Origin: Flavihumibacter fluvii
Lineage (GTDB): Bacteria; Bacteroidota; Bacteroidia; Chitinophagales; Chitinophagaceae
Length of the DNA stretch: 64,000 nucleotides
Reading direction: 5' to 3'
NCBI RefSeq assembly: GCF_018595675.2
Contig: NZ_CP092333.1
Span: 124,001-188,000 of the forward strand
Each line of letters begins with the position of its first letter. Positions within the stretch are counted from its first letter, which is position 1. Positions 9,645 through 30,556 of the stretch are shown one piece after another. The notes beneath the pieces were generated by a model, which saw only the letters and a program-made list of their open reading frames with translations, was not told where the DNA came from and searched no databases. The position numbers and the translations under genes are program-made.

Positions 9645-12146
9645 ATGAGAATTGTAATTATTGGCAATGGCATGGTGGGCTATAAATTCTGTGAGAAACT
9701 GCTGGCTTCGCCCCTGGCATACCGGTTTCAACTGACCGTTTTCGGGGAAGAAACAAGGCCTGCTTACGACCGGGTACACCTCAGCGAATTTTTTTCCGGT
9801 AAATCTGCAGAGGACCTTTCCTTAGCCCCGGCCCAATGGTATTTAGATAACGGTATCCAGCTGTATTTATCCGATCCCATTATTCAGATTGACAGAACTG
9901 CCAAAACCATAAGATCCCACCAGGGACTGTCCGTACCCTATGATTACCTGGTAATGGCCACCGGCTCAGCTGCTTTTGTTCCGGCTATTCCCGGGGTTGA
10001 AAAAGACGGGGTCTTCATTTACCGCACCATCGAAGACCTGGAAGCCATGTGCAACTGGGCACCAAAAGCAAAAAAAGCAGCAGTGATCGGTGGCGGGCTT
10101 CTCGGCCTGGAAGCTGCCAAAGCCCTGATTGACCTGGGCATTTCCGACACCCATATCATTGAATTTGCTCCGCGGCTGATGCCCCGCCAGATTGATGCGG
10201 CCGGTTCGTCTATTCTGGAAACCCGGCTTACAGCGCTTGGACTGGCTATCCATACCCAAAAAAACACCAGCAGCATTGATGGTGATGGCGCCATAACCGC
10301 GCTCAGTTTTACCGATGGGGAAAAACTGGCGGTGGATATGCTGGTTATTTCTGCCGGTATTAAACCCCGGGATGAACTGGCCAGGGCAGCTGAATTGCAG
10401 GTCGGCGCACGCGGCGGTATCGTAGTGAATGAAAAACTGCTGACCAGTGATCCATTTATTTTCGCCATCGGCGAATGCGCACTTTATAATGAAATGATCT
10501 ACGGCCTGGTAGCCCCGGGTTATGAAATGGCCGATGTCGTCGTAAACTTCCTTAACGGGGGTACTAAATCTTTTACGGGTTTTGATATGAGTACCAAACT
10601 GAAACTGATCGGAAATGATGTGGCCAGTTTCGGGGATCCCTTTATAACTGGTGACCATGTACGTACTATCGTAATGGAAGACAATTTGAAAGGCACTTAC
10701 AAACGGATCAATATCTCGGCGGATGGTAAGGTACTGCTGGGTGGTATTCTTATTGGTGATGCCAATGCTTACAACATGTTATTGCAAACCTGTAAAAATA
10801 AACTGGCCCTTCCCCCCAATGCTGAAGACCTGATCATGGGGCCACGTAATGGTGGAGAAGATACAGGTGCCGGAGTTACATCGCTTCCGGATGAAGCCCT
10901 GATCTGCAGTTGTGAAAGTATCAGTAAAGCGGCCATTTGCGCTTCTGTTACAGATTCGGGCTGCGAAACAGTCGATGCGGTTAAAAAATGCACCAAAGCC
11001 GGAACCGGTTGCGGTGGATGCCTGCCCATGGTCAAAGACCTGGTGGTGTACACCATGAAATCGCAGGGCAAATATATCCGCAATGTTTTGTGTGAACACT
11101 TTCCTTACAGCCGCCAGGAATTATTCGACCTGGTGAAAATCCATGACCTCAAATCTTATGATGAAGTACTCGATAAACTGGGCTCCGGTCATGGTTGTGA
11201 AATGTGCAAACCACCAGTCGCTTCAATCTTAGCCAGCCTCTGGGGAGAGATGATCCTGCAAAAAGGAAACGCTACGGCACAGGACAGCAATGACAGGTTC
11301 CTGGCCAATATTCAAAAAGGGGGTACCTATTCCGTGGTGCCGCGTATACCCGGCGGGGAAATAACTCCCGATAAACTTATTGTCATTGGCGAAGTCGCAA
11401 AAAAATACCAGCTCTATACAAAAATTACAGGCGGACAAAGAATTGACCTGTTTGGCGCACACCTTTCTGACCTTCCAAAGATCTGGGAGGAACTTATAGC
11501 TGCCGGATTTGAAAGCGGTCATGCTTATGGTAAAGCCCTAAGGACAGTGAAAAGTTGTGTTGGCAGTACCTGGTGTCGTTTTGGTCTGCACGACTCCGTT
11601 AGTTATGCCATCAGGGTGGAAGAACGGTACCGTGGATTAAGGGCACCGCATAAAATAAAATCCGGGGTAAGTGGCTGTATCCGCGAATGCGCAGAAGCAC
11701 AATCCAAGGATTTCGGCATCATCGCAACAGAAAAAGGGTGGAACCTTTATGTCTGTGGTAATGGTGGTTCCAAACCTCAGCATGCTGTTTTGCTGGCCAC
11801 AGACCTTGATTCGGATACCTGTCTCCGTTATATAGACAGGTTCCTGATGTTTTATATTAAAACCGCCGACCCATTGGCAAGGACCGCCACCTGGCTCAAT
11901 AAAATGGAAGGCGGCATCGAATATCTCCGCAATGTAGTGGTGAATGATAGCCTGGGTATGGCCGCTGATTGGGAAGCAGAAATGCAGACCCTGGTTGATA
12001 GCTATGAATGTGAATGGAAAGCTGCTGTTGAAAACCCGGAGATCAGGAAACGCTTTTCCCATTTTGTTAATGCACCGGAAGATAAAGATCCTTCTGTCCA
12101 GTTTGCCACCATGCGCGACCAGAAACGCGCTGTAGAGTGGAAATAA
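9645..12146 (+). CDS. nirB: NADH-dependent nitrite reductase, large subunit
   Basis: Cytoplasmic sirohaem nitrite reductase (833 residues) reducing nitrite to ammonium with NAD(P)H. Order of domains: FAD-binding (IVIIGNGMVGYKF, residue 3 on), NAD-binding (AVIGGGLLGLEAAKAL, about 146), a BFD-like [2Fe-2S] region (CSC at 421-423, C456 and C459), a second cysteine-bearing linker (C518, C521), then the ferredoxin-like half and the sirohaem/[4Fe-4S] domain with both ligand pairs present: C638-x5-C644 and C678-x3-C682. All expected cofactor ligands are intact and the length is normal. It is followed by nirD, and a porin, a nitrate transporter and a nitrate reductase continue on the same strand. Confidence 0.97.
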   Translation: MRIVIIGNGMVGYKFCEKLLASPLAYRFQLTVFGEETRPAYDRVHLSEFFSGKSAEDLSLAPAQWYLDNGIQLYLSDPIIQIDRTAKTIRSHQGLSVPYDYLVMATGSAAFVPAIPGVEKDGVFIYRTIEDLEAMCNWAPKAKKAAVIGGGLLGLEAAKALIDLGISDTHIIEFAPRLMPRQIDAAGSSILETRLTALGLAIHTQKNTSSIDGDGAITALSFTDGEKLAVDMLVISAGIKPRDELARAAELQVGARGGIVVNEKLLTSDPFIFAIGECALYNEMIYGLVAPGYEMADVVVNFLNGGTKSFTGFDMSTKLKLIGNDVASFGDPFITGDHVRTIVMEDNLKGTYKRINISADGKVLLGGILIGDANAYNMLLQTCKNKLALPPNAEDLIMGPRNGGEDTGAGVTSLPDEALICSCESISKAAICASVTDSGCETVDAVKKCTKAGTGCGGCLPMVKDLVVYTMKSQGKYIRNVLCEHFPYSRQELFDLVKIHDLKSYDEVLDKLGSGHGCEMCKPPVASILASLWGEMILQKGNATAQDSNDRFLANIQKGGTYSVVPRIPGGEITPDKLIVIGEVAKKYQLYTKITGGQRIDLFGAHLSDLPKIWEELIAAGFESGHAYGKALRTVKSCVGSTWCRFGLHDSVSYAIRVEERYRGLRAPHKIKSGVSGCIRECAEAQSKDFGIIATEKGWNLYVCGNGGSKPQHAVLLATDLDSDTCLRYIDRFLMFYIKTADPLARTATWLNKMEGGIEYLRNVVVNDSLGMAADWEAEMQTLVDSYECEWKAAVENPEIRKRFSHFVNAPEDKDPSVQFATMRDQKRAVEWK

Positions 12147-15600: not shown

Positions 15601-18600
15601 ATGAAACAAACGTTCAAAACAACCTGTTGTTACTGTGGTGTTGGCTGCGGTGTGCTGATAAATAAGGATGACCAGGGCAAGCTGACAGTTACCGGTGATC
15701 CTGAGCACCCGGTCAACCAAGGCATGCTTTGTTCGAAAGGAATGAACCTGCACCATACCATTTCGGACCTGTCCGACAGGTTATTGTACCCTGAAATGCG
15801 TTATGGCAGGAATCTTCCCCGGCAAAGGGTTTCATGGGATACAGCATTGGAACGGATTGCTGCCGCATTTGCTGCATTGATCAAAAAATACGGACCGGAT
15901 TCGGTAGCATTTTATGCTTCCGGACAATGCCTGACCGAAGAATATTATGTGATCAATAAACTGATCAAAGGGTTTATTGGCAGTAATAATATCGATACCA
16001 ATTCCCGGCTCTGTATGAGTTCTGCCGTGGTTGGCTACAAAATGAGCCTCGGTGAAGACAGTGTTCCGGTTTGTTATGATGATATCGAATTGGCAGATTG
16101 CATTTTCGTTGCCGGGGCAAATCCAGCCTGGTGCCATCCGATTTTATGGAGAAGGGTAGAGGCTGCAAAGGCTGCTAACCCTAATTTGAAGATCATTCTT
16201 TCAGATCCACGGGCTACACAATCTTCAGCACTGGCTGATTGTTTCCTTCAAATCAATCCTGGTACCGATATCACCCTGCACCATGCCATTGGGCGCTGCC
16301 TGATTGAAGCCGGTGATGTGGATATGCTGTTCATCAAAGACCACACGGAGGGCTTTGATCATTACCGGGAAACAGTATTTGTTCGGTCCCTTGAACAGGC
16401 TGCTGACATTTGTGGAATTACAGTGTCTGAAATTCAACAGGCAGCAGCTTATATTGGCGGGGCCAAAGCCTTCCTGTCTATGTGGACCATGGGCTTGAAC
16501 CAGAGTGTGGTTGGGGTACAGAAAAACTTATCTCTTATCAACCTGAACCTGATCACCGGCCAGATCGGTAAGCCAGGTGCCGGACCCTTTTCGCTCACCG
16601 GGCAACCCAATGCCATGGGTGGAAGGGAAGTTGGCGGTTTATCTAATCTTTTACCGGCACACCGTAATCTTTCGGATAGCCAACACCGCAAAGAAGTGCA
16701 GGAATTCTGGGGGTCCGGGCCAATTTCTCCCAATCCAGGGTTAACTGCCACTGAAATGTTTGAAGCGCTGCACGATGGTCGCCTGAAAGCGATCTGGATC
16801 ATCTGCACCAATCCGCTTGTCAGTTTGCCTGATTCAAGGATGGTTGAACTGGCGTTACAAAAGGCCCGGTTCGTGGTGGTACAGGACATCAGTAATAAAC
16901 CTGAAACCCTGCAATATGCTGATGTGGTTTTGCCAGCTGCAGGTTATACGGAAAAGACCGGTACCATGACAAATGCCGAAAGAAGGATCAGCCTGCTTGA
17001 GAAGATTATTGACCCGCCAGGGGAAGCGTTGCCAGATGCTGAGATCATCTGTCGCTTTGCTAAAAAAATGGGCTTTCCTGGTTTCGACTATGCATCCCCG
17101 GAAGCTATTTATAAAGAACATGTTGCGCTCACAAAAAATACCAGCATTGATATCAGTGCCCTTGATTATGAATTGATCCGGTCGAATCACACGGTGCAGT
17201 GGCCTTATGGCATTGCCGGCAATATGACAGGTACACCCAGGTTGTTCACCGATAAAAAATTCCATACACTTTCAGGCCGGGCCAGGTTGCATGGGTTCCC
17301 TGACGATAATACAAGTGAACCTGTTTCGCCGGCCTTTCCCCTGGTGCTTACTACAGGAAGGATCCGTGACCAATGGCATACCATGACCAAAACCGGTAAG
17401 GTGAACCGGTTGAAACAACATATCTCCCAGGCCTTTATTGAGATCCATCCGGATGATGCCAGGTCAAGGTCCATCAGGGATGGCGATCTGGTAGAAATTA
17501 ACAGTGCCAGGGGTGAGGTTAGGGTAAAAGCAAAACTTTCACCAACGATTAAGAAAGGCGTTGTATTCCTGCCCATGCATTGGGGTAAATTATTGAATAA
17601 TGACCTCAATCGCGCCAATAACCTGACAAGTAACCTGGTGGATCCACTTAGTAAGGAACCTGATTTTAAATTCTCTGTCGTTCAGGTGAAGAAATACGGA
17701 TATGCTGCAAAAAAAATCATTGTAATTGGTGCAGGTGCAGGTGCCTGCGGCTTTGTGAAATCTTACCGGGCACTCAATACACGCGATGAGATCCAGGTTT
17801 TCAGCAAAGAAGATTTCCCATTTTATAACCGGGTCTTATTGCCAGACTATATAAGCGGCGCACTGCCCTGGTATAACCTGGTAAAAATGACCGATGCGGA
17901 GGAACTGGAGTATAATATTCGGTTACACAGGGGTGTTAGCATCGTGGAAGTGGATCGTGAACATAAAATTGTCCTGGATAGCCTGGGCAGGCGGCATTCT
18001 TATGATGTCCTCATTATGGCCACCGGCAGCAGGGCCGCTATGCTTAAAGAACTTCCCGAAATTCCCGGCATTTTCAGCATGCGCAGCAGGGCTGATGCTG
18101 ATGCCTTTAAAAGTCATATTGATGCAAACAAGGGCACAGTGGTCATTGTTGGTGGTGGTTTATTGGGAATTGAATTGGCGGCCTCTCTCCGCGAAGTCGG
18201 TGTTGCCGTTACCATTATCCAGCGGATCTCGCGGCTGATGGACCGGCAACTCGATCCACTGGGTAGCCAGTTGTTACACGATGAGCTGGTTAGTAAGGGT
18301 GTGGATATTTATTACAATGATGAAATTGAACGTTGTTTTGGTAATGAATACATTAAAGGTATCCGCCTCAAGAGCGGATTGCTGATCGACTGCAAGGCCC
18401 TTGTAGTGGCTATCGGAACAGCACCCAATATTGAATTGGCAAAGGAATCGGGTGTGCTCTGTAAAAGGGGCGTGGTGGTAAATGAATACCTGCAGACCAG
18501 TGACCCGGCTATCTTTGCTATTGGCGAGATCGCAGAATTCAAAGGATTCTTATACGGCATTACAGCCGCAGCAGAGCAACAGGCTGAAATCGTTGCCGCT

Positions 18601-19098
18601 TATTTGTCCGGCGATATTTCTACATATTACGATGGTTCCTTACTGATGAATATACTTAAGATGCATGGCACAGACCTTTGTTCCCTTGGACTGGCTGAAT
18701 GTCCCGATGAACCTGGCTATGAAGAAGTCATTTTCATTGATAAAGCGAAGCGGTATTATAAAAAATGCATTATTCATAACGACCGCCTGGTGGGTGCCAT
18801 ACTGATTGGTGATAAGGCTGAATTCCTTGAATTCAGGGACCTGATCCAGAATAAACTTGAGCTTAGTGAAAAACGGCTTCAATTGCTTCGGTCTGGGAAA
18901 AAAACCGAACCTGTGATCGGAAAACTGATCTGTAGTTGTGGCGGTGTTGGTGAAGGCAATATTACCTCAAAAATTGACCAGGGTTGTACTGACCTTGTAC
19001 AGTTGTGTCAATTGTCAGGGGCCGGAATGGGCTGTGGCAGCTGCCGGAGTGAAGTGAAATCTATTCTTTCCGAAAAACTGAGTTTAACCTTAATATAA
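15601..19098 (+). CDS. Assimilatory nitrate reductase: molybdopterin catalytic module fused to FAD/NAD(P)H reductase and BFD iron-sulfur module
   Basis: A 1165-residue three-part protein. Residues 1 to about 700 are a Mo-bis-MGD nitrate reductase of the NarB/NasA type with its N-terminal [4Fe-4S] ligands C9-x2-C12-x3-C16 and C44, the GxxTGQxNAMGGREVGG region (about 335-345) and a C-terminal MopB dinucleotide-binding domain (PLVLTTGRIRDQWHTMT). Residues about 705-1090 are a NirB-like FAD reductase with two dinucleotide loops (IVIGAGAGACGF about 707; VIVGGGLLGIELAASL about 848). The last 55 residues are a BFD-like [2Fe-2S] domain (CSCGGVGEGN ... CGSC). It would take electrons from NAD(P)H and reduce nitrate without separate partners. 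Its stop overlaps the next start by one base (TAATG). Confidence 0.93.
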   Translation: MKQTFKTTCCYCGVGCGVLINKDDQGKLTVTGDPEHPVNQGMLCSKGMNLHHTISDLSDRLLYPEMRYGRNLPRQRVSWDTALERIAAAFAALIKKYGPDSVAFYASGQCLTEEYYVINKLIKGFIGSNNIDTNSRLCMSSAVVGYKMSLGEDSVPVCYDDIELADCIFVAGANPAWCHPILWRRVEAAKAANPNLKIILSDPRATQSSALADCFLQINPGTDITLHHAIGRCLIEAGDVDMLFIKDHTEGFDHYRETVFVRSLEQAADICGITVSEIQQAAAYIGGAKAFLSMWTMGLNQSVVGVQKNLSLINLNLITGQIGKPGAGPFSLTGQPNAMGGREVGGLSNLLPAHRNLSDSQHRKEVQEFWGSGPISPNPGLTATEMFEALHDGRLKAIWIICTNPLVSLPDSRMVELALQKARFVVVQDISNKPETLQYADVVLPAAGYTEKTGTMTNAERRISLLEKIIDPPGEALPDAEIICRFAKKMGFPGFDYASPEAIYKEHVALTKNTSIDISALDYELIRSNHTVQWPYGIAGNMTGTPRLFTDKKFHTLSGRARLHGFPDDNTSEPVSPAFPLVLTTGRIRDQWHTMTKTGKVNRLKQHISQAFIEIHPDDARSRSIRDGDLVEINSARGEVRVKAKLSPTIKKGVVFLPMHWGKLLNNDLNRANNLTSNLVDPLSKEPDFKFSVVQVKKYGYAAKKIIVIGAGAGACGFVKSYRALNTRDEIQVFSKEDFPFYNRVLLPDYISGALPWYNLVKMTDAEELEYNIRLHRGVSIVEVDREHKIVLDSLGRRHSYDVLIMATGSRAAMLKELPEIPGIFSMRSRADADAFKSHIDANKGTVVIVGGGLLGIELAASLREVGVAVTIIQRISRLMDRQLDPLGSQLLHDELVSKGVDIYYNDEIERCFGNEYIKGIRLKSGLLIDCKALVVAIGTAPNIELAKESGVLCKRGVVVNEYLQTSDPAIFAIGEIAEFKGFLYGITAAAEQQAEIVAAYLSGDISTYYDGSLLMNILKMHGTDLCSLGLAECPDEPGYEEVIFIDKAKRYYKKCIIHNDRLVGAILIGDKAEFLEFRDLIQNKLELSEKRLQLLRSGKKTEPVIGKLICSCGGVGEGNITSKIDQGCTDLVQLCQLSGAGMGCGSCRSEVKSILSEKLSLTLI

Positions 19099-19586
19099 TG
19101 GATACGATCAATTATTTTTTATTTGAAACTGATTTCGTTGAGGATAATATCCGCTGCATTCCCATGGTGGTTCGTATGAAGCTAGACCTGGTTGGCATAA
19201 AAATGTCTCTGGCTGCATGGAGTCGATGTACTGCTGCTCAAAGAAAAGAACTGGTTGATGCCGCTTGTAAAACATCTTCAGAAAAATGGCAATTTGCTAA
19301 ACTGACCGAAAAAGTAATCCGTACAATTACCGGTGAACCTCCCGTTTTGATTGCTGTTGAAAAGAATCAATTCTGGGAAGACCTCGCCGAAGTGCCCGAA
19401 CCTTTGGTAAAGCAGGCCGCTTTATACGGTTTAACCATTTCAGTTGTACAATGGCAAGCACTGACCCCATTGCAAAGATTCGCCCTGGTGAAATTGTGCA
19501 GGCCCGGACACGAGAACAGGAATTTCCCATTTGCCATGCAGGAATTCGGATTAGCTGAACACCTGCCCATCAATGCATTGTTATGA
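19098..19586 (+). CDS. Nitrate reductase associated protein (NRAP family)
   Basis: A 162-residue small soluble protein matching the nitrate-reductase-associated family best known in cyanobacteria. Hallmarks are FLFETDFVEDNIRCIPMVVRMKLDL-type sequence near the N-terminus (F-E-x-D-F, RCIPM, R-x-KLDLxGIK) and LxxWSR. Family members sit beside narB-type nitrate reductase genes and are thought to help the enzyme, but the mechanism is unknown. It overlaps the nitrate reductase stop by one base and the next gene by 4 bases (ATGA), so translation is coupled in this run. Confidence 0.88.
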   Translation: MDTINYFLFETDFVEDNIRCIPMVVRMKLDLVGIKMSLAAWSRCTAAQRKELVDAACKTSSEKWQFAKLTEKVIRTITGEPPVLIAVEKNQFWEDLAEVPEPLVKQAALYGLTISVVQWQALTPLQRFALVKLCRPGHENRNFPFAMQEFGLAEHLPINALL

Positions 19587-21037
19587 AAGATTATAAACTG
19601 ATCGTTATTAATTTTAAAGGCGGAATCATTTCCCCCGGCGACCTGTTTTATATGCTGACTGCTGCCCAGAAAGCCGGCGTAATGACCGTTAAATTTGGAC
19701 TTCGCCAGCAATTGTTCCTGGAACTGGCGCCGGAATCCTTTGAATGGATGACCCATAAGTTGGCACAACTGAAAATAAATTTTCAAACCCGCCTGGATGA
19801 TCGCCCCAATATTGTCAGTTCATACCCGGCAGAAGGAATTTTTATTACCAATACCTGGTTAAGTGAAGGCGTTTACAAGGATGTTTTCGACAATTTTGAT
19901 TTTCATCCGCGTCTTAAAGTTAATATTTGTGATAGTAAACAAAGCTTTACACCCATGCTCACCGGGAATATCAATTGGGTGGCTGACCCGGTGATACCCC
20001 ATTATTGGAATTGCCTCATCCGTTTTCCCAGGACTAATAAAATTTACGAATCCCGGCACCTGGTGTATACCAATGACCTGGCCAGGATGACCAGCCATAT
20101 TGAATCTATTATCATCGATCAAAAACCATTATTTTACCGGGATGGAGAACCCGTTGGCGAATTACTCTTTGCCCAGGTTCTTTCTACATCCTACCTGGTC
20201 AAACCCGCTAATGCAGCATTTGTGCTGCCCAGTTATAACCTGCCTTATTATGAAGGTTTGAACCGGTATAATAATAAATACTGGTTGGGTATTTACCGGC
20301 GGGATGAATCCTTCCCGATTGATTTTCTGATTGACACCTGTCTTTTGTGCCTCGAAATGAAGATTGGCCAGCTCTGTGCCACGCCCTGGAAATCTATTAT
20401 TATCAAAAGTATTGATGAAAAAAACCGCATGGACTGGAATGCGCTGCTCAATAAATACCAGGTGAATGTGCGTCACGCTGCGAATGAATTAAATTTCCAG
20501 GTCGAAGACAATTGTGCTGCAGGTCTCGCCCTGAAACAGTTCCTCGTTAAATCCCTGAATGAGGCAGACATCCGGACTTTCGGGATCTGCTTTGGAATTA
20601 AGACAAGGCGGAAATCGGAAGTATTCAGTAGTATCCTGGTAAGAAGGAAACCCTGGTTCTCGATTTTTGGTCTTGGCTTTTTTCATACCTATGATATCTT
20701 GTGTGCTGATGAATTCAACCCGAACAAAAGAACAGGTTTTGTTTTCAGTAAGAATAACCCTAAGTGGGTATTGGCTGAGCAATTAAGAAGGGCCGTGGTT
20801 GCCTATTACCATCAGTTAAAAGGGATGGCTACAGAAAAATCTGAACACATGCCAAAAAAAGAGCTGTTGGCGACACCTGTCATGGTATACCAATGCGCTA
20901 CTTGTCTATCAGTTTATGACCGGCAGGACACGCCCTTTGAAGAGGTTGATGCCAGTTATTGCTGCCCTTTATGCGAATCACCTAAAGATGGATTTAAAAA
21001 AACAGACCAGCAGGCATTGGGTTTACTGCCCGTTTAG
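19583..21037 (+). CDS. Sulfite/nitrite-reductase-like protein lacking iron-sulfur/sirohaem ligands, with C-terminal rubredoxin domain
   Basis: 484 residues. The first 70 residues look like a nitrite/sulfite reductase ferredoxin-like half domain (INFKGGIISPGDLFYMLTAA, then TVKFGLRQQLFLE), and a second such half lies about residues 265-315 (IGQLCATPWKSIIIK). The C-x5-C and C-x3-C pairs that hold the [4Fe-4S]-sirohaem centre are not seen between or after the halves. The last 50 residues are a rubredoxin: C438-x2-C441 and C461-x2-C464 with YDRQDTPFEEV between. It overlaps the NRAP gene by 4 bases, so it belongs to the nitrate reductase operon. It may pass electrons to nitrate or nitrite reductase or act in assembly; this is inference. 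Its 3' end overlaps mobA convergently by 15 bases. Confidence 0.8.
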   Translation: MKDYKLIVINFKGGIISPGDLFYMLTAAQKAGVMTVKFGLRQQLFLELAPESFEWMTHKLAQLKINFQTRLDDRPNIVSSYPAEGIFITNTWLSEGVYKDVFDNFDFHPRLKVNICDSKQSFTPMLTGNINWVADPVIPHYWNCLIRFPRTNKIYESRHLVYTNDLARMTSHIESIIIDQKPLFYRDGEPVGELLFAQVLSTSYLVKPANAAFVLPSYNLPYYEGLNRYNNKYWLGIYRRDESFPIDFLIDTCLLCLEMKIGQLCATPWKSIIIKSIDEKNRMDWNALLNKYQVNVRHAANELNFQVEDNCAAGLALKQFLVKSLNEADIRTFGICFGIKTRRKSEVFSSILVRRKPWFSIFGLGFFHTYDILCADEFNPNKRTGFVFSKNNPKWVLAEQLRRAVVAYYHQLKGMATEKSEHMPKKELLATPVMVYQCATCLSVYDRQDTPFEEVDASYCCPLCESPKDGFKKTDQQALGLLPV

Positions 21038-21616
21038 GTCTGCATGGGAATTGAAGTTTTTAAAAGCGGCTGCATAATGATCGGGTACTGGTTGCAGGTC
21101 ACAATTTAGTTTAGCTATCAGGTATTTCATGCTATGCCTTTCTAATTGCCCGGCTTGTAGTAAGTCATAAACTTTGCGGAGCCCCTTACTGCAATATATA
21201 CCGCATAATGGTTCCGGTTCACCATGGGTGGTCCATAAATAGGCATCAAATCCAGGCTGATTGGAATAAGTTGTAGCCAGTGCTTCCAGGATAGCCGGGT
21301 CCATCTGTTGCAGGTCGCAGGCCAGTACAAAGAGGTCTGCTTCCGGAAACTTTTCATGTATGCTTAATAGGCCACAAACAGGCCCGTGAATCCCTAACTC
21401 CAGGTTATCCGGAACAAGCTGGTCGGGGGGGAAGAATGCAGTGAATGTTTCCATCTGCTGGTCATTTACTGAAATCAGCACCTTGCCAGAGAGGAACTTA
21501 AGCAGCGATACACTATGCTGCATCCAGTTGCCGGTTTCTGATGGCAGCAAGGCTTTATCGCTTCCCATCCGGCTGCTCTGGCCACCACAAAACACGACTG
21601 CCTGTAATTTGATCAT
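21023..21616 (-). CDS. mobA: Molybdenum cofactor guanylyltransferase
   Basis: A 197-residue nucleotidyltransferase that joins GMP to molybdopterin to make the MGD cofactor used by the nitrate reductase upstream. The N-terminal signature is AVVFCGGQSSRMGSDKALL (G-G-x-S-x-RMG-x-DK) and the metal-binding part is LACDLQQMDP, with a GEPEPLCGIY region as in MobA. The length is normal. It is transcribed towards the rubredoxin gene, sharing 15 bases at the 3' ends, and follows the SelW-like gene by 5 bases. Confidence 0.93.
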   Translation of the reverse strand: MIKLQAVVFCGGQSSRMGSDKALLPSETGNWMQHSVSLLKFLSGKVLISVNDQQMETFTAFFPPDQLVPDNLELGIHGPVCGLLSIHEKFPEADLFVLACDLQQMDPAILEALATTYSNQPGFDAYLWTTHGEPEPLCGIYCSKGLRKVYDLLQAGQLERHSMKYLIAKLNCDLQPVPDHYAAAFKNFNSHADLNGQ

Positions 21617-24355: not shown

Positions 24356-27300
24356 TTATTCCACACTGATTTTAATGCCTTCTGAATGACTGGTGAACTC
24401 GGGTGCATACATACACTGAACGGTACTGATGCCATTGCTGAATACTCCTGCATGTGAAACAAACAATCCATATTCCATCACATAGGTTCCCTTTGGTAAA
24501 TAGCTGATGAAAAAATTCGTGCTGGCATCACGAGTACTTTCATAATAGCCCAATCCACCCTGCCACTTATAACTACTTAATACACTTACCGGTTCCAGTG
24601 AACTGGCGCGCATATCTTTCACATGTACATATTCCATGGACCGGTCTGTTGTTAATTCAATCCGCACGGTAACCTTATCACCCACCTGCAAGGTAGCGCC
24701 TTCACCAACCGGCTCCAAAACCGGACCGGCCTTGGAAGCTTTTTGCACCATCACTTGTTTTTTTAATCGTAATGGGCCTGCCGATGCTGTGATCTTTTCC
24801 AGGCTCTCAAAATATTGCCAGTACACCGCTCCCCAGACTGGTTGTTGTGTGTTAGCTCCCTGGGCCTGCTGCACATTCAAGGTGATTTTTCCCATTTCAG
24901 GAAACACACCGGTGCCCGGGATTTGCTTCTGGTAATACCCGCTTCCGGCTTCAGTTTTATCTGCGCGGACGGTAGTGTTGGTACCTAACTGTACACTCAC
25001 CACAGGCTCGGCTTCCAGCCAGTTATCGCCTTTCAGTAAAAGCGCATAACAGGCATCTGCAGTCGATTTTGTGGAGGTCCAGTGATTGGTTTGTTTGTTG
25101 CGTAATAGCCAGGTTTTTAATGCGCCAACGGTTTTGTCATTCCCACGTATTGCACTGAACGCTTCAATCAGTAAGGCCTGCGTTTCAATTGGCGCATCCT
25201 GCCAGTAATATGCAGCAACATTGTCTTTCCAGTACATTCCCAGTTCATCATGTATGATGGCGCTTTGCTCCAGGGATTTCAAAATACTTTCAGCAGTGAA
25301 TTTATCTCCTGTGCGGAACAAGGCCAACGCTATCATACCCCTGGCCATACGATTTCCCTTGATCCAGTTTTGCTGGATTTCTTTACGGTAATGGTTAGCT
25401 GCAGGCAGGATTGTTCCGGCTATGCCTTTCTCAGGAAAGAAGCTGCGCATATAATGGTACTGCACAGCATAATAATTCAGGTGATTAACAGTGGTGGTTT
25501 TTTTATCGCGCCTGTCATAGTCTTCTTTGATGCGTGCATCGAGGTAAGGAAGGGCTTTATCCACGATCTGCATCAGTTGTGGCAGGTCCTTCGGAAGCAC
25601 ACCTAACTGTTTCAGGTGTCCTATGCCCGTTACGATGTATTGGGTGATATAGCGGTCATCTGGACCACCCTTAAACCAACTGAATCCACCATTCGGGGCT
25701 TGCAGCTCAACCAGTTGGGCTGCAAGCTTACTGCGGTTGGCAGCCAGTTGCACAAGATTGAATAACTGTGCGATATTCCTTTTTTGCGCGGCTTCTGATT
25801 TTGCGGCCAATACCCAGGGTGTTTCTTCCAGCAGCACTTGTTTTAAACCCTGGTTCTTCTGGAGGTTGCTGAGCAGGGCACTTGTGTCTTTTGTATTCCA
25901 TTGCTCAAGGATCGATCTGATCCTGGGCAGCCGGTCTACGATGCTTGCTGCCAGCAGGTTGCCATACAAACGGTTGAAACTTTGTTCTGCGCATTCATAC
26001 GGATAATCGGCCAGGTACGTGAGTGCCTGCACGGCATACCAGGCCGGGTTTGAAGTATATTCTACAGTGAGCGACCGGTTACTTAATGTTTCACTGCCAC
26101 CGCTTTGGGTTAGTTTTTTAAAGTCATAGTTTTTAATGCCACTGCCATTAATATAGAAGGGGAGGGACTCAGTGACCAGTTGCCGGTTACTGAGAACAGG
26201 AAGTACCGCTTCTTCGCCATCACTGAAATTTCCTGAGCGGGCAATGATCTTATAGGTTAACACTTTATCAAAAAGGAAAGGCACTTCAACCGGGAATTTC
26301 ACCACCTCACTGCTGCCTGCTGCTACGGTAAAATACTGGTTGGGAAAGAAATTATTGAACCAGCCATCGATCGGTTGGTTGGTGGTGGCGTCAATGAGCT
26401 GTAATTCTGCTTGCCCGGTCATCTCCTTGTCACTCAGGTTCACCACCTTGGTGGTGACTTCGAGGCGATCACCTTCTCGCAGGAACCGTGGCATATTCGG
26501 TTGCACCATCAACTCTTTTTGCGTGAGGATAGTTTTTTGCAGGGTACCCATGGAGAGGTCAGCGCTATGCGCTAATATTTGCCATTTCCAGGTCGTGAGC
26601 GCTTCAGGCATGGTGAAGCTGAAGGTATATTGGCCTTCAGTATCGGCTTGCAATTGCGGGAAGAAGAAAGCTGTCTCCCGGAAGTCTTTGCGGGTAGCTG
26701 TGCCGGAATTTGATAAAGGGACTGGTTCTACTATTTTGCTGCCAGTTATTTCTTCATTATTTTTTTCTCCGTCTCCCGGAGCGCCCTTTTTCTTAGTGGA
26801 ATAGGCGCTTACTATTACTTCTTTTTTTGAATCATCAGCCATTGGTGCTGCCATCGTTATTCTTGATTTTTCATACAACATGCTTCTTTCAAATCCCTGG
26901 TTCCTGGCTGTAATCAATTCATCATAATCCTTTTCTTTTACTTCTGCCAAATCTGGCACCGGAGCATTGTTTATTGATCCCACATTAGTAAAACAAACAT
27001 TCGCTTCCCAGTTTTCCCGGTTCCAATATAATGGCCAAAGCGAAGGCAGGCTCCATTGGTGGGGAGCAAACTGGTCAAGCGAAGCATCATACATACTGGT
27101 CAGTAATTCAGCTGCTACTTTTTCACCTTTATTCCCTTTGATGCGGACCGACCATTTTTCCTCACTTCCCGGTAGGGTCTTATCGCGGTAACTACTTACT
27201 TCAATATCGAGTTCCATATTCAGCCAGGGTACGGCAATACCATGCTGCACGGAATAGAAACGATTGTCTTTTACGAAAAAATGCATCCAGGCCATACCAC

Positions 27301-30300
27301 CCCGATCACCTTCCGTTGCAGTGAGTGATTCGTTAAGGATAGAATTATCAAGACCCTGTATGGTAAACTTTCCGGAAAAGGATACCTGTGATGCTGTCAA
27401 CGGGTCGTAGCTGGCGTTTTCTCTTTGTTGGATGACGTATACCTTGCCGGCACTGCTGCCCAGGGTGATATGGGCCGTTTCGCCAGGTTGCAAAACCTGC
27501 TTGTCCTGCAGGGTCGTTAAATAGGCGGGAACCGGCAATTGCCTGGCCCTGGTATCCACGAGGTAAACAGTGGCAAAATCCTTTACAGTATCACCATAAC
27601 GGTCAACAGTAGTGGCTATTACCTTATACCAACCCGCACCTGGTTTATTAAGATCTACAGGCAATTTGCCTGAAACTGCTGTGGTGATGGTCGTATTCCA
27701 TATTTCCGTACCTGTTTTCCAGCTTGCCGGATCAGCTTCCGTTGCATATTCATCATTCGGGAAGTATTGTACAAATTCTTTTTCAGTGAATATATATTGA
27801 TCTGGCTTTGCCCACAGCCTGTTGCGCACCAGCCTGCCGGGTGATAACAAGGGAAGGATTGATACATTGACTTTCGCTGCTTCAAAACTGCCACTGATAT
27901 TTTGGGTGGTGATACTGAACTGCCTGAAACTATCCAGGGCCATCACTTGTGCAGGGATACCGATTTTCACCTGCAGGGCTTTATAGGAAACCGGGATGAT
28001 TGTGCTGGCGCTGCGGGTCTCCCCATTCAGGTCCGTCACATCCACACTGACTTCATAATCAAACACCGGATCAGTGCTTTTATCGAGTTGTTCATCGGGA
28101 ATAGCCAGGAAGGGGATACTGAAACTGCCATCTGCAGCAGTCACCAGTTTGCCATGGGTAATCTCCTGGGAAGCTCTCTTGGGCATGGGCTTCCAGTATG
28201 CCCGCCACGGATACAAAAACCTTGCATTTCGGGTGACCCTGTAGGTGAGGCTGGCCCCATTGATCACATTACCTGCATAGGCTTTGGCAAATCCTTTTAC
28301 AGTTACACTGTCATTTACCCGGTAGGTGCCTTTCTGCTGCTCATATTCCACAAAAAACTTCGGTCGTTTATATTCCTCCACCCTGAACCCGGCCTGGCCA
28401 TGCAACATGGGGTCTTCCAGCCGGAACCCACCGGTAAGGCCGGTTTCCGGGATGTTAAAACTGCCGCTATAAGATCCATACAGGTTGGTAAATACTTTTA
28501 CTGAATCAATCTTTTCTCCATTGGCATTGTAAAGGTTCACTACGGTTGGTATCCCTGCGTATACTTTATTTTTCTTGCTGTCTGCATCCCTGGTTATTGC
28601 AATGCCTTTAAAATACAGGGTTTGCCCCGGACGGTAAATACTTCTGTCAGTGAAAAAAAATACCCTCGCATACTTTAATGCTTCGATGGCTTGTTTTTTT
28701 GATTTCTCCGCAGTTGGCGAATACATATATAAGTATTCTTCATCCTCCAGGAACAGCCGGTCATCTTTATAATTGACCTCCAGTAAAAGGTTGCTGCTTT
28801 TTTGCAGGTCATTGAAATGCAGGTAGCCTTCCTCGCTGGTGATATACCTGCTGCCTTTGGCAGGAATATTTTTCCGCGTCTGGTAATCATATTGCCGCAA
28901 CCAGGTTTGCACCCCGGCTTTTGCCAGTGGCTGCCCGGATGCACGGTGCAGGAAGAAAAAATCATTCCCGCGTTTTACATAACTGATATTGGATACATGA
29001 AATCGGGCGGCTGCCAGGTGGGTATTGTCCAGGTTAAAATCATTGTTGCTGCCGGCCAATAAAATATATTCCCCAATTGGTAAACCATCCACTTTGAGCT
29101 CAACGCTATGCTTTTGGTAATCGTTGGTGGAAGGTAGGTTTTGCTCCCACGCCTTTATCGGATTTTCTTTCAGTAGCAATTGCCATTCCGCTGTATCAAA
29201 GTAGCGGCCGTCCTCAAACAATGATTTCCTTAGGCCCTCATTGATCCTTACCAGCCTGAAATGCACTGCTTGTAAATTTCGCCATCCTGTGAGGCTGCGG
29301 AAGGGTTGTCCAGGCAGGTTCACTTTTTCAATGGTCAGGTCCAGGCTGGGCTGCCTGATCTCCTGTAACAGGTTATAACAATTGGCATAACCTTCACTGT
29401 CTTTTTTAGTAAGGGTTACTTTTTCACATATGGCTAAAGCGCGGACATAATCAGCTGGTTCCTTGTCCATATAAGAACGGGCCAGTAAATAAGCTGCCTG
29501 GTCGGCACCTGCGGTTCCTTCATACCTTTTGTGAATATCTTCCAGCGCTTTTTGGTAAGCGGATTTTTTCCCGGCCATTATACCATTGTCATGCATATAA
29601 CTTATACGGCTCAGGTCAGCATCCAGCAGGGCCGCCGGATTTTTATCGGACAGGTGGAATTTCAGGATATCCTGGTATAGTTGGACCGCTTTGAAATAGT
29701 GGTCACCTGGTTGCTCTGCCTTAAACCTGTGCTGCGAAAATTCTGCGGCTGGTGCCAGTAATTTTTCGGACTGCAAAGTGAATGCATCTTCAGCCAGGTT
29801 TTCACCCTCCCTTCCTTGCATGTAATAATCCAATGCTTTCCAGGCGATCAAATCATATAGTGTCGGCCTTAACTGCCGTACATTCCCTTTTTCAATTACC
29901 GGGTCAAACCTGGTCAGGTCGGTATGCTGTAATACAGTCGCCTCTTTTAGCGCGGCGGTAAATTCGTTGCTGATGGCTTCATGAAAATCGGCCACGCCCC
30001 ATGAACGGATATTTTCCTTCTGGTAATTCCGCGTGGCTGTCTGGTCATAGAGTTCCCAGCGATGGTTATTGTAATACGTATTGTAATAATCTGCCAGCAG
30101 GCTGTGGAAAATAGCACTGGTTGCCCCTTTGGTGGATGCACTGGCTTTTTTATAAGCAGCTATGACCAGGGTGTCACTGAACTCTTCTAATTGCTCCTGT
30201 AATTCCATCCTGTATACCAGCGCCTTAATCTGCTGGGCCTCTTGTTTTTCGGCTACTGCCTTTTTATATAATTTGTTCACTTCGGTCAGGGCAGACCGGT

Positions 30301-30451
30301 AGAGCCCTTTTTTCTGGACTAGCGAATCTATCCTGGTCCACCAGCTCGTATAATTGGCGGGCTTCATGTTTTGGGCATATATAGCGGATGAAAAGAATAC
30401 GGAGATAAAAAAGAAAATAAGAATGCCGGTTGTCTGGCGCATAAGGCTCAT
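24356..30451 (-). CDS. Bacterial alpha-2-macroglobulin family protein with intact thioester motif
   Basis: A very large secreted protein (about 2030 residues) of the bacterial alpha-2-macroglobulin family, which traps proteases in the periplasm or at the cell surface. The N-terminus has a signal peptide (ILIFFFISVFFSSAIYAQ) and no lipobox cysteine. After a helical TPR-like region of about 350 residues comes the MG2 start (FFFTDRSIYRPGQTLYF, about residue 615), several beta-rich macroglobulin domains, an alpha-2-macroglobulin core (ETAFFFPQLQ...TTWKWQILAHS), and the thioester loop YPYECAEQSF with Cys about 1493 and C-x-E-Q intact. The frame is open to 30469; ATG at 30451 or 30442 fits the signal peptide best. 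Escherichia coli pairs such genes with pbpC; here the downstream partner is a FAD oxidoreductase. Confidence 0.93.
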   Translation of the reverse strand: MSLMRQTTGILIFFFISVFFSSAIYAQNMKPANYTSWWTRIDSLVQKKGLYRSALTEVNKLYKKAVAEKQEAQQIKALVYRMELQEQLEEFSDTLVIAAYKKASASTKGATSAIFHSLLADYYNTYYNNHRWELYDQTATRNYQKENIRSWGVADFHEAISNEFTAALKEATVLQHTDLTRFDPVIEKGNVRQLRPTLYDLIAWKALDYYMQGREGENLAEDAFTLQSEKLLAPAAEFSQHRFKAEQPGDHYFKAVQLYQDILKFHLSDKNPAALLDADLSRISYMHDNGIMAGKKSAYQKALEDIHKRYEGTAGADQAAYLLARSYMDKEPADYVRALAICEKVTLTKKDSEGYANCYNLLQEIRQPSLDLTIEKVNLPGQPFRSLTGWRNLQAVHFRLVRINEGLRKSLFEDGRYFDTAEWQLLLKENPIKAWEQNLPSTNDYQKHSVELKVDGLPIGEYILLAGSNNDFNLDNTHLAAARFHVSNISYVKRGNDFFFLHRASGQPLAKAGVQTWLRQYDYQTRKNIPAKGSRYITSEEGYLHFNDLQKSSNLLLEVNYKDDRLFLEDEEYLYMYSPTAEKSKKQAIEALKYARVFFFTDRSIYRPGQTLYFKGIAITRDADSKKNKVYAGIPTVVNLYNANGEKIDSVKVFTNLYGSYSGSFNIPETGLTGGFRLEDPMLHGQAGFRVEEYKRPKFFVEYEQQKGTYRVNDSVTVKGFAKAYAGNVINGASLTYRVTRNARFLYPWRAYWKPMPKRASQEITHGKLVTAADGSFSIPFLAIPDEQLDKSTDPVFDYEVSVDVTDLNGETRSASTIIPVSYKALQVKIGIPAQVMALDSFRQFSITTQNISGSFEAAKVNVSILPLLSPGRLVRNRLWAKPDQYIFTEKEFVQYFPNDEYATEADPASWKTGTEIWNTTITTAVSGKLPVDLNKPGAGWYKVIATTVDRYGDTVKDFATVYLVDTRARQLPVPAYLTTLQDKQVLQPGETAHITLGSSAGKVYVIQQRENASYDPLTASQVSFSGKFTIQGLDNSILNESLTATEGDRGGMAWMHFFVKDNRFYSVQHGIAVPWLNMELDIEVSSYRDKTLPGSEEKWSVRIKGNKGEKVAAELLTSMYDASLDQFAPHQWSLPSLWPLYWNRENWEANVCFTNVGSINNAPVPDLAEVKEKDYDELITARNQGFERSMLYEKSRITMAAPMADDSKKEVIVSAYSTKKKGAPGDGEKNNEEITGSKIVEPVPLSNSGTATRKDFRETAFFFPQLQADTEGQYTFSFTMPEALTTWKWQILAHSADLSMGTLQKTILTQKELMVQPNMPRFLREGDRLEVTTKVVNLSDKEMTGQAELQLIDATTNQPIDGWFNNFFPNQYFTVAAGSSEVVKFPVEVPFLFDKVLTYKIIARSGNFSDGEEAVLPVLSNRQLVTESLPFYINGSGIKNYDFKKLTQSGGSETLSNRSLTVEYTSNPAWYAVQALTYLADYPYECAEQSFNRLYGNLLAASIVDRLPRIRSILEQWNTKDTSALLSNLQKNQGLKQVLLEETPWVLAAKSEAAQKRNIAQLFNLVQLAANRSKLAAQLVELQAPNGGFSWFKGGPDDRYITQYIVTGIGHLKQLGVLPKDLPQLMQIVDKALPYLDARIKEDYDRRDKKTTTVNHLNYYAVQYHYMRSFFPEKGIAGTILPAANHYRKEIQQNWIKGNRMARGMIALALFRTGDKFTAESILKSLEQSAIIHDELGMYWKDNVAAYYWQDAPIETQALLIEAFSAIRGNDKTVGALKTWLLRNKQTNHWTSTKSTADACYALLLKGDNWLEAEPVVSVQLGTNTTVRADKTEAGSGYYQKQIPGTGVFPEMGKITLNVQQAQGANTQQPVWGAVYWQYFESLEKITASAGPLRLKKQVMVQKASKAGPVLEPVGEGATLQVGDKVTVRIELTTDRSMEYVHVKDMRASSLEPVSVLSSYKWQGGLGYYESTRDASTNFFISYLPKGTYVMEYGLFVSHAGVFSNGISTVQCMYAPEFTSHSEGIKISVE

Positions 30452-30556
30452 TTTAATACAAGTTATCAAAAAGGATACAGATGCAGGATGCAGTAAAGGC
30501 CAGAATTACATACGGTACAAAAAACGAAGGGCCACCTTAACGTTTTATTGATGAAA

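Follow-up and report, generated by a model that had tools for sequence, protein, structure and literature searches.

A gene in the nitrate assimilation region of Flavihumibacter fluvii encodes a protein that joins a degenerate, two-half sulfite reductase (SiR) fold to a carboxyl-terminal rubredoxin. The window analyzed, a 64,000-nucleotide stretch of the genome, contains this gene as an intact open reading frame with an ATG start (19583..21037, plus strand, stop included; 484 aa). Computation reveals a protein that has kept its ancestral fold, lost the four cysteines of the catalytic center, and acquired a rubredoxin site; it is encoded behind a fused NADH-dependent nitrate reductase and is inherited together with it. 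We see about an even chance that the protein is a dedicated accessory of one clade (clade A) of this reductase in the Bacteroidota. The family thus appears to be an uncharacterized component of nitrate assimilation across the phylum, hidden under a "rubredoxin" annotation: this is the sole name that NCBI gives to a Spirosoma relative. Literature searches, which covered mainly papers outside subscription journals, found no paper on the family.

A vestigial reductase fold

Taken alone, the window protein matches two Pfam models below cut-off: Rubredoxin, 15.2 bits; and NIR_SIR_ferr, 12.7 bits (residues 7-47). Across the family the matches are strong: all 31 members match NIR_SIR_ferr (best E 1e-17), and 27 of 31 match Rubredoxin (best E 3e-17). 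The model search proposed by the first-pass annotation gave a divided answer, in that the ferredoxin half was found throughout, whereas the 4Fe-4S/sirohaem domain (PF01077, NIR_SIR) had no match at E 1 among the same 31 members. When the core (residues 1-415) was compared as a profile with a profile of true two-half sirohaem reductases, the two proved collinear over 383 columns (E 9e-9, score 75); control alignments, for which the profile was reversed or its columns were shuffled (eight times), scored 13-21.5. Foldseek comparison with the PDB placed SiR, NiR, or NirA enzymes in all of the top 31 positions (E 2e-9 to 8e-6), although the AlphaFold2 model used as query is weak (pLDDT 65, pTM 0.43). 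Together, these results confirm the original reading that the protein retains the nitrite/sulfite reductase fold.

Two ferredoxin-like and two sirohaem-domain halves can be traced in one chain, the arrangement of a sirohaem reductase, least clearly at residues 299-414. The first ferredoxin-like half (residues 5-70; 19595..19792, plus strand as for all parts of the gene) matches NIR_SIR_ferr and contains an FGxRQ motif (R41, Q42); R41 aligns with the arginine of TNRQ in Escherichia coli SiRHP. Profile alignment and conservation define the vestigial first sirohaem domain (residues 75-205; 19805..20197), with motifs PxxKxN (P109, K112, N114) and TGNIN (N131). The second ferredoxin-like half, with motifs TPWK (267-270) and RH (297-298), is conserved and lies at about residues 222-298 (20246..20476) rather than at 265-315 as first proposed. 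This segment superposes on its counterpart in maize SiR and in Mycobacterium tuberculosis NirA (Z 7.7-7.9, rmsd 2.4-2.7); when the second half of the protein was folded alone, model residues 17-93 fell on maize SiR residues 408-482 (Z 7.9, rmsd 2.4).

The vestigial second sirohaem domain (residues 299-414; 20477..20824) is delimited by profile alignment and conservation, and is the weakest and least certain of the fold assignments. VIA-align also related residues 299-418 to the anticodon-binding domains of tRNA synthetases (Z up to 8.8), a likeness that probably reflects a common alpha/beta arrangement. The rubredoxin (residues 434-475; 20882..21007), assigned by Pfam and structure match, has its two CxxC pairs (C438 and C441; C461 and C464) exactly as annotated. 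Nearly every full-length copy has this domain, and the four-cysteine set is complete in 92 of 99 rubredoxin-bearing relatives.

The CX5C and CX3C ligand pairs for the [4Fe-4S]-sirohaem center are missing from the second half in all 117 relatives aligned, while the NirB nitrite reductase of the same window (9645..12146, plus strand) keeps both (CVGSTWC and CIREC). The annotated loss of these ligands is thus general, and the alignment reveals no conserved catalytic cysteines. In contrast, the pocket persists: virtually every one of the 117 relatives has R41, Q42, N76, Q120, N131, Y238, R240, K270, E302, and K318, while 113 have K112 and 114 have N114. The family is a clear example of an enzyme fold without its catalytic center yet with a strongly conserved pocket.

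A further CxxC motif (C253, C256; 20339..20350), overlooked in the first-pass annotation, is nearly invariant: C253 is present in 112 of the 117 relatives, and C256 in 116. No such pair occurs at the equivalent place in the true sirohaem reductase aligned to it. A strict metal site here is doubtful, because one or the other cysteine is missing from six of the 117.

Linkage to one reductase clade

The constant upstream neighbor is the fused NADH-dependent nitrate reductase (15601..19098, plus strand), which contains a molybdopterin catalytic part; an FAD/NADH part; Rubredoxin_C; and a BFD [2Fe-2S] domain. In the window, nitrate reductase, NirB-like FAD/NADH, and BFD modules form a single chain of 1165 aa. 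The gene for NarM (Nitr_red_assoc; 19098..19586, plus strand) intervenes. It overlaps the SiR-fold gene by four bases (ATGA, 19583-19586), and the reductase gene by just one (TAATG, 19096-19100), so that only the former is the 4-base overlap originally described for this operon. A convergent MobA-like gene (21023..21616, minus strand; named by eye) overlaps the 3' end of the SiR-fold gene by 15 bases, and is its conserved neighbor in Chitinophagaceae and Pedobacter. Farther along the window, a minus-strand open reading frame of 2037 aa (24356-30469) has, by eye, the look of an alpha-2-macroglobulin-type protein.

Two samples were surveyed: 395 Bacteroidota genomes, phylum-wide; and Chitinophagaceae, where 44 further genomes have the full-length protein. 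Together they contain 75 full-length copies in 72 genomes. Seventy of the 75 lie directly behind a fused reductase gene on the same strand, 14-1137 bp downstream. Of the other five, two sit at broken contigs, and the remaining three are second copies, all from a single genus. These second copies (locus L167 of genome G401, and those in G492 and G561) have the rubredoxin and lie away from nitrate genes; that at L167 adjoins genes for RelA/SpoT and adenylosuccinate synthetase. Full-length copies away from nitrate genes are therefore rare, and the proposed tie to the fused reductase is supported. The companion link to NarM (also called NRAP) is not supported: NarM is rare in genomes carrying the family (4 of 69), yet common in Pedobacter loci.

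In the 395-genome sample, the full-length protein occurs in 28 genomes, and the full-length fused reductase in these plus five others. The five carry a NirA-type enzyme instead of NirB, and lack the SiR-fold protein. The reductase tree separates the 28 from the five as clades A and B (support 100/100); presence of the SiR-fold protein tracks clade A, with no loss seen within it. Reductase and SiR-fold protein trees correlate across the 28 genomes (mirror-tree r 0.96, uncorrected for shared ancestry). Among the 44 further Chitinophagaceae genomes, 43 have the reductase and 43 have NirB; the two exceptions are different genomes, both with fragmented or incomplete assemblies. When NirB-bearing Chitinophagaceae are compared, the fused reductase accompanies NirB in 42 of 43 genomes with the SiR-fold protein versus 0 of 9 without. 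(The nine were chosen for extra sirohaem domains and for absence of the SiR-fold protein, so the comparison tests only reductase presence, and the informative part is 0 of 9.)

Clade A and clade B reductases share every cofactor cysteine: 9, 12, 16, and 44 for [4Fe-4S]; 138, the Mo ligand; and 1111, 1113, 1145, and 1148 in BFD, with roles as known for the family. Thus, no ligand difference between the clades points to a redox center that the SiR-fold protein would supply to clade A. Moreover, since the sister clade of five genomes keeps all of these ligands without the protein, this class of enzyme does not inherently depend on it.

A short form without rubredoxin

Thirteen sequences of about 430-450 aa lack the rubredoxin and form one monophyletic clade (support 1.0). 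They retain the pocket residues and the CxxC corresponding to C253/C256, and none of their 13 loci has nitrate genes nearby. The 11 genomes with only the short form have neither NirB nor the fused reductase. This persistence means that the core has a use independent of the fused nitrate reductase, and its role may be wider.

In two genomes, the short form adjoins genes for sulfite reductase; SUMT; PBG deaminase; ALAD; precorrin-2 dehydrogenase; and a sulfite exporter. The sulfite reductases at loci L155 and L157 are 711-729 aa long, and that of L157 has a carboxyl-terminal match to the HEPN domain (27.3 bits; cut-off 22). Neighbors at the other loci are unrelated; in Ginsengibacter hankyongi (L022), for example, the short form gene directly follows the complex I (nuo) genes and precedes that for pyruvate phosphate dikinase. 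NIR_SIR proteins are encoded in 11 of the 13 short-form genomes versus 149 of 244 in the family. With these counts, and with most neighborhoods unrelated, we reject a general tie of the short form to sulfite reductase. Full-length, short, and absent states in sister clades provide ready-made comparisons for finding function.

Proposed role and known relatives

Near-constant placement directly behind one type of reductase suggests that the SiR-fold protein probably is a dedicated helper of that enzyme. In this model, the protein would bind the clade A reductase, and its vestigial pocket (R41, Q42, K112, N114, N131, Y238, R240, T267, K270, and E302) would hold a ligand, which may be an anion or a tetrapyrrole. 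The rubredoxin tail may exchange electrons with the FAD/NADH part of the reductase, a part that belongs to the rubredoxin reductase domain family. Indeed, the presence of Pyr_redox_2 and Rubredoxin_C (75.6 bits) in this part makes the reductase a possible electron donor, and the exchange plausible if unproven. Its function presumably would not be to reduce nitrite or sulfite, but to help in maturation, redox tuning, or product handling.

Of these functions, maturation is favored over simple electron carriage. A more specific version, which we hold tentatively, casts the protein as a maturation factor or chaperone for the Mo site or for folding of the fused reductase, in which the SiR fold would be no more than a scaffold for binding and the rubredoxin would sense redox state. 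Dedicated chaperones do serve assimilatory nitrate reductases elsewhere: the cyanobacterial enzyme needs NarM. The frequent MobA neighbor and the conserved C253/C256 pair fit such a function. NarJ is likewise the dedicated chaperone for assimilatory NasC in Paracoccus denitrificans (PMC6618116). However, the many conserved polar residues of the pocket suggest a ligand, beyond a mere scaffold; NarM is found alongside the SiR-fold protein, not as its substitute; and the short form exists without any fused nitrate reductase. An obligatory carrier, feeding electrons to the reductase through the rubredoxin, would account for the near-universal tail of full-length copies and the rubredoxin-reductase-like FAD domain of the partner. 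It is nonetheless unlikely: the reductase already has FAD along with [4Fe-4S] and BFD [2Fe-2S] ligands, the sister clade manages with the same set, and the large conserved core would be left unexplained.

Other explanations look beyond the nitrate reductase. It is rather unlikely that the SiR fold, deprived of its [4Fe-4S]-sirohaem center, has been re-used as a novel protein, active or ligand-binding, with the retained pocket and the new CxxC binding a tetrapyrrole or an anion or performing chemistry of their own. On this reading, the rubredoxin form would work for nitrate reductase, and the short form for some other pathway. We consider it improbable that the protein handles sirohaem or another tetrapyrrole (as carrier, insertase, or modifying enzyme) on behalf of sirohaem enzymes. 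The two short-form loci with tetrapyrrole genes, the alignment of R41 with the SiRHP arginine, and matches of some members to CobG (below) all point in this direction. Against it, NirB genomes without the fused reductase also are without the SiR-fold protein; one short-form genome (G410, 98% complete) encodes no sirohaem reductase whatever; and short-form neighbors are unrelated outside the two loci. Nor does the protein seem to fill a missing step in sirohaem synthesis, to judge from the precorrin-2 dehydrogenase step, for which almost every genome has the enzyme regardless. Least probable by far is a partnership with NirB, at the nitrite step. NirB does occur in exactly the 28 genomes of the phylum-wide sample that have the full-length protein, but this split reflects a single event in the reductase phylogeny, and so cannot decide between the two partners. 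The nine Chitinophagaceae genomes with NirB, and with neither the SiR-fold protein nor the fused reductase, largely refute it.

The helper of clade A reductase, as we prefer to see it, resembles several known systems in part. A search of plasmids for further relatives gave matches from Bacteroidota alone, and a search of viral contigs gave none. Like NarM and NarJ, the protein shares an operon with a cytoplasmic assimilatory nitrate reductase, as its gene linkage attests; unlike them, it co-occurs with NarM in few genomes, and no sequence similarity to either was found. CobG precorrin-3B synthase (TIGR02435) belongs to the same superfamily, and six family members match its model (best E 5e-6). 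However, the match is weak and confined to this minority, the window protein has no match to the curated model, and its gene lies among nitrate genes. The last 45 residues contain the two CxxC iron-ligand pairs of rubredoxin (PF00301), here as the tail of a 430-aa domain and missing from the short form. The closest likeness in architecture is to CysI, NirA, and plant NiR (PF03460 plus PF01077): these share the two-half fold, a TxRQ-type motif, and the collinear profile and fold match. From this common plan the SiR-fold protein departs in the loss of four sirohaem/[4Fe-4S] cysteines and of any PF01077 match, and in the gain of an extra CxxC and a rubredoxin tail.
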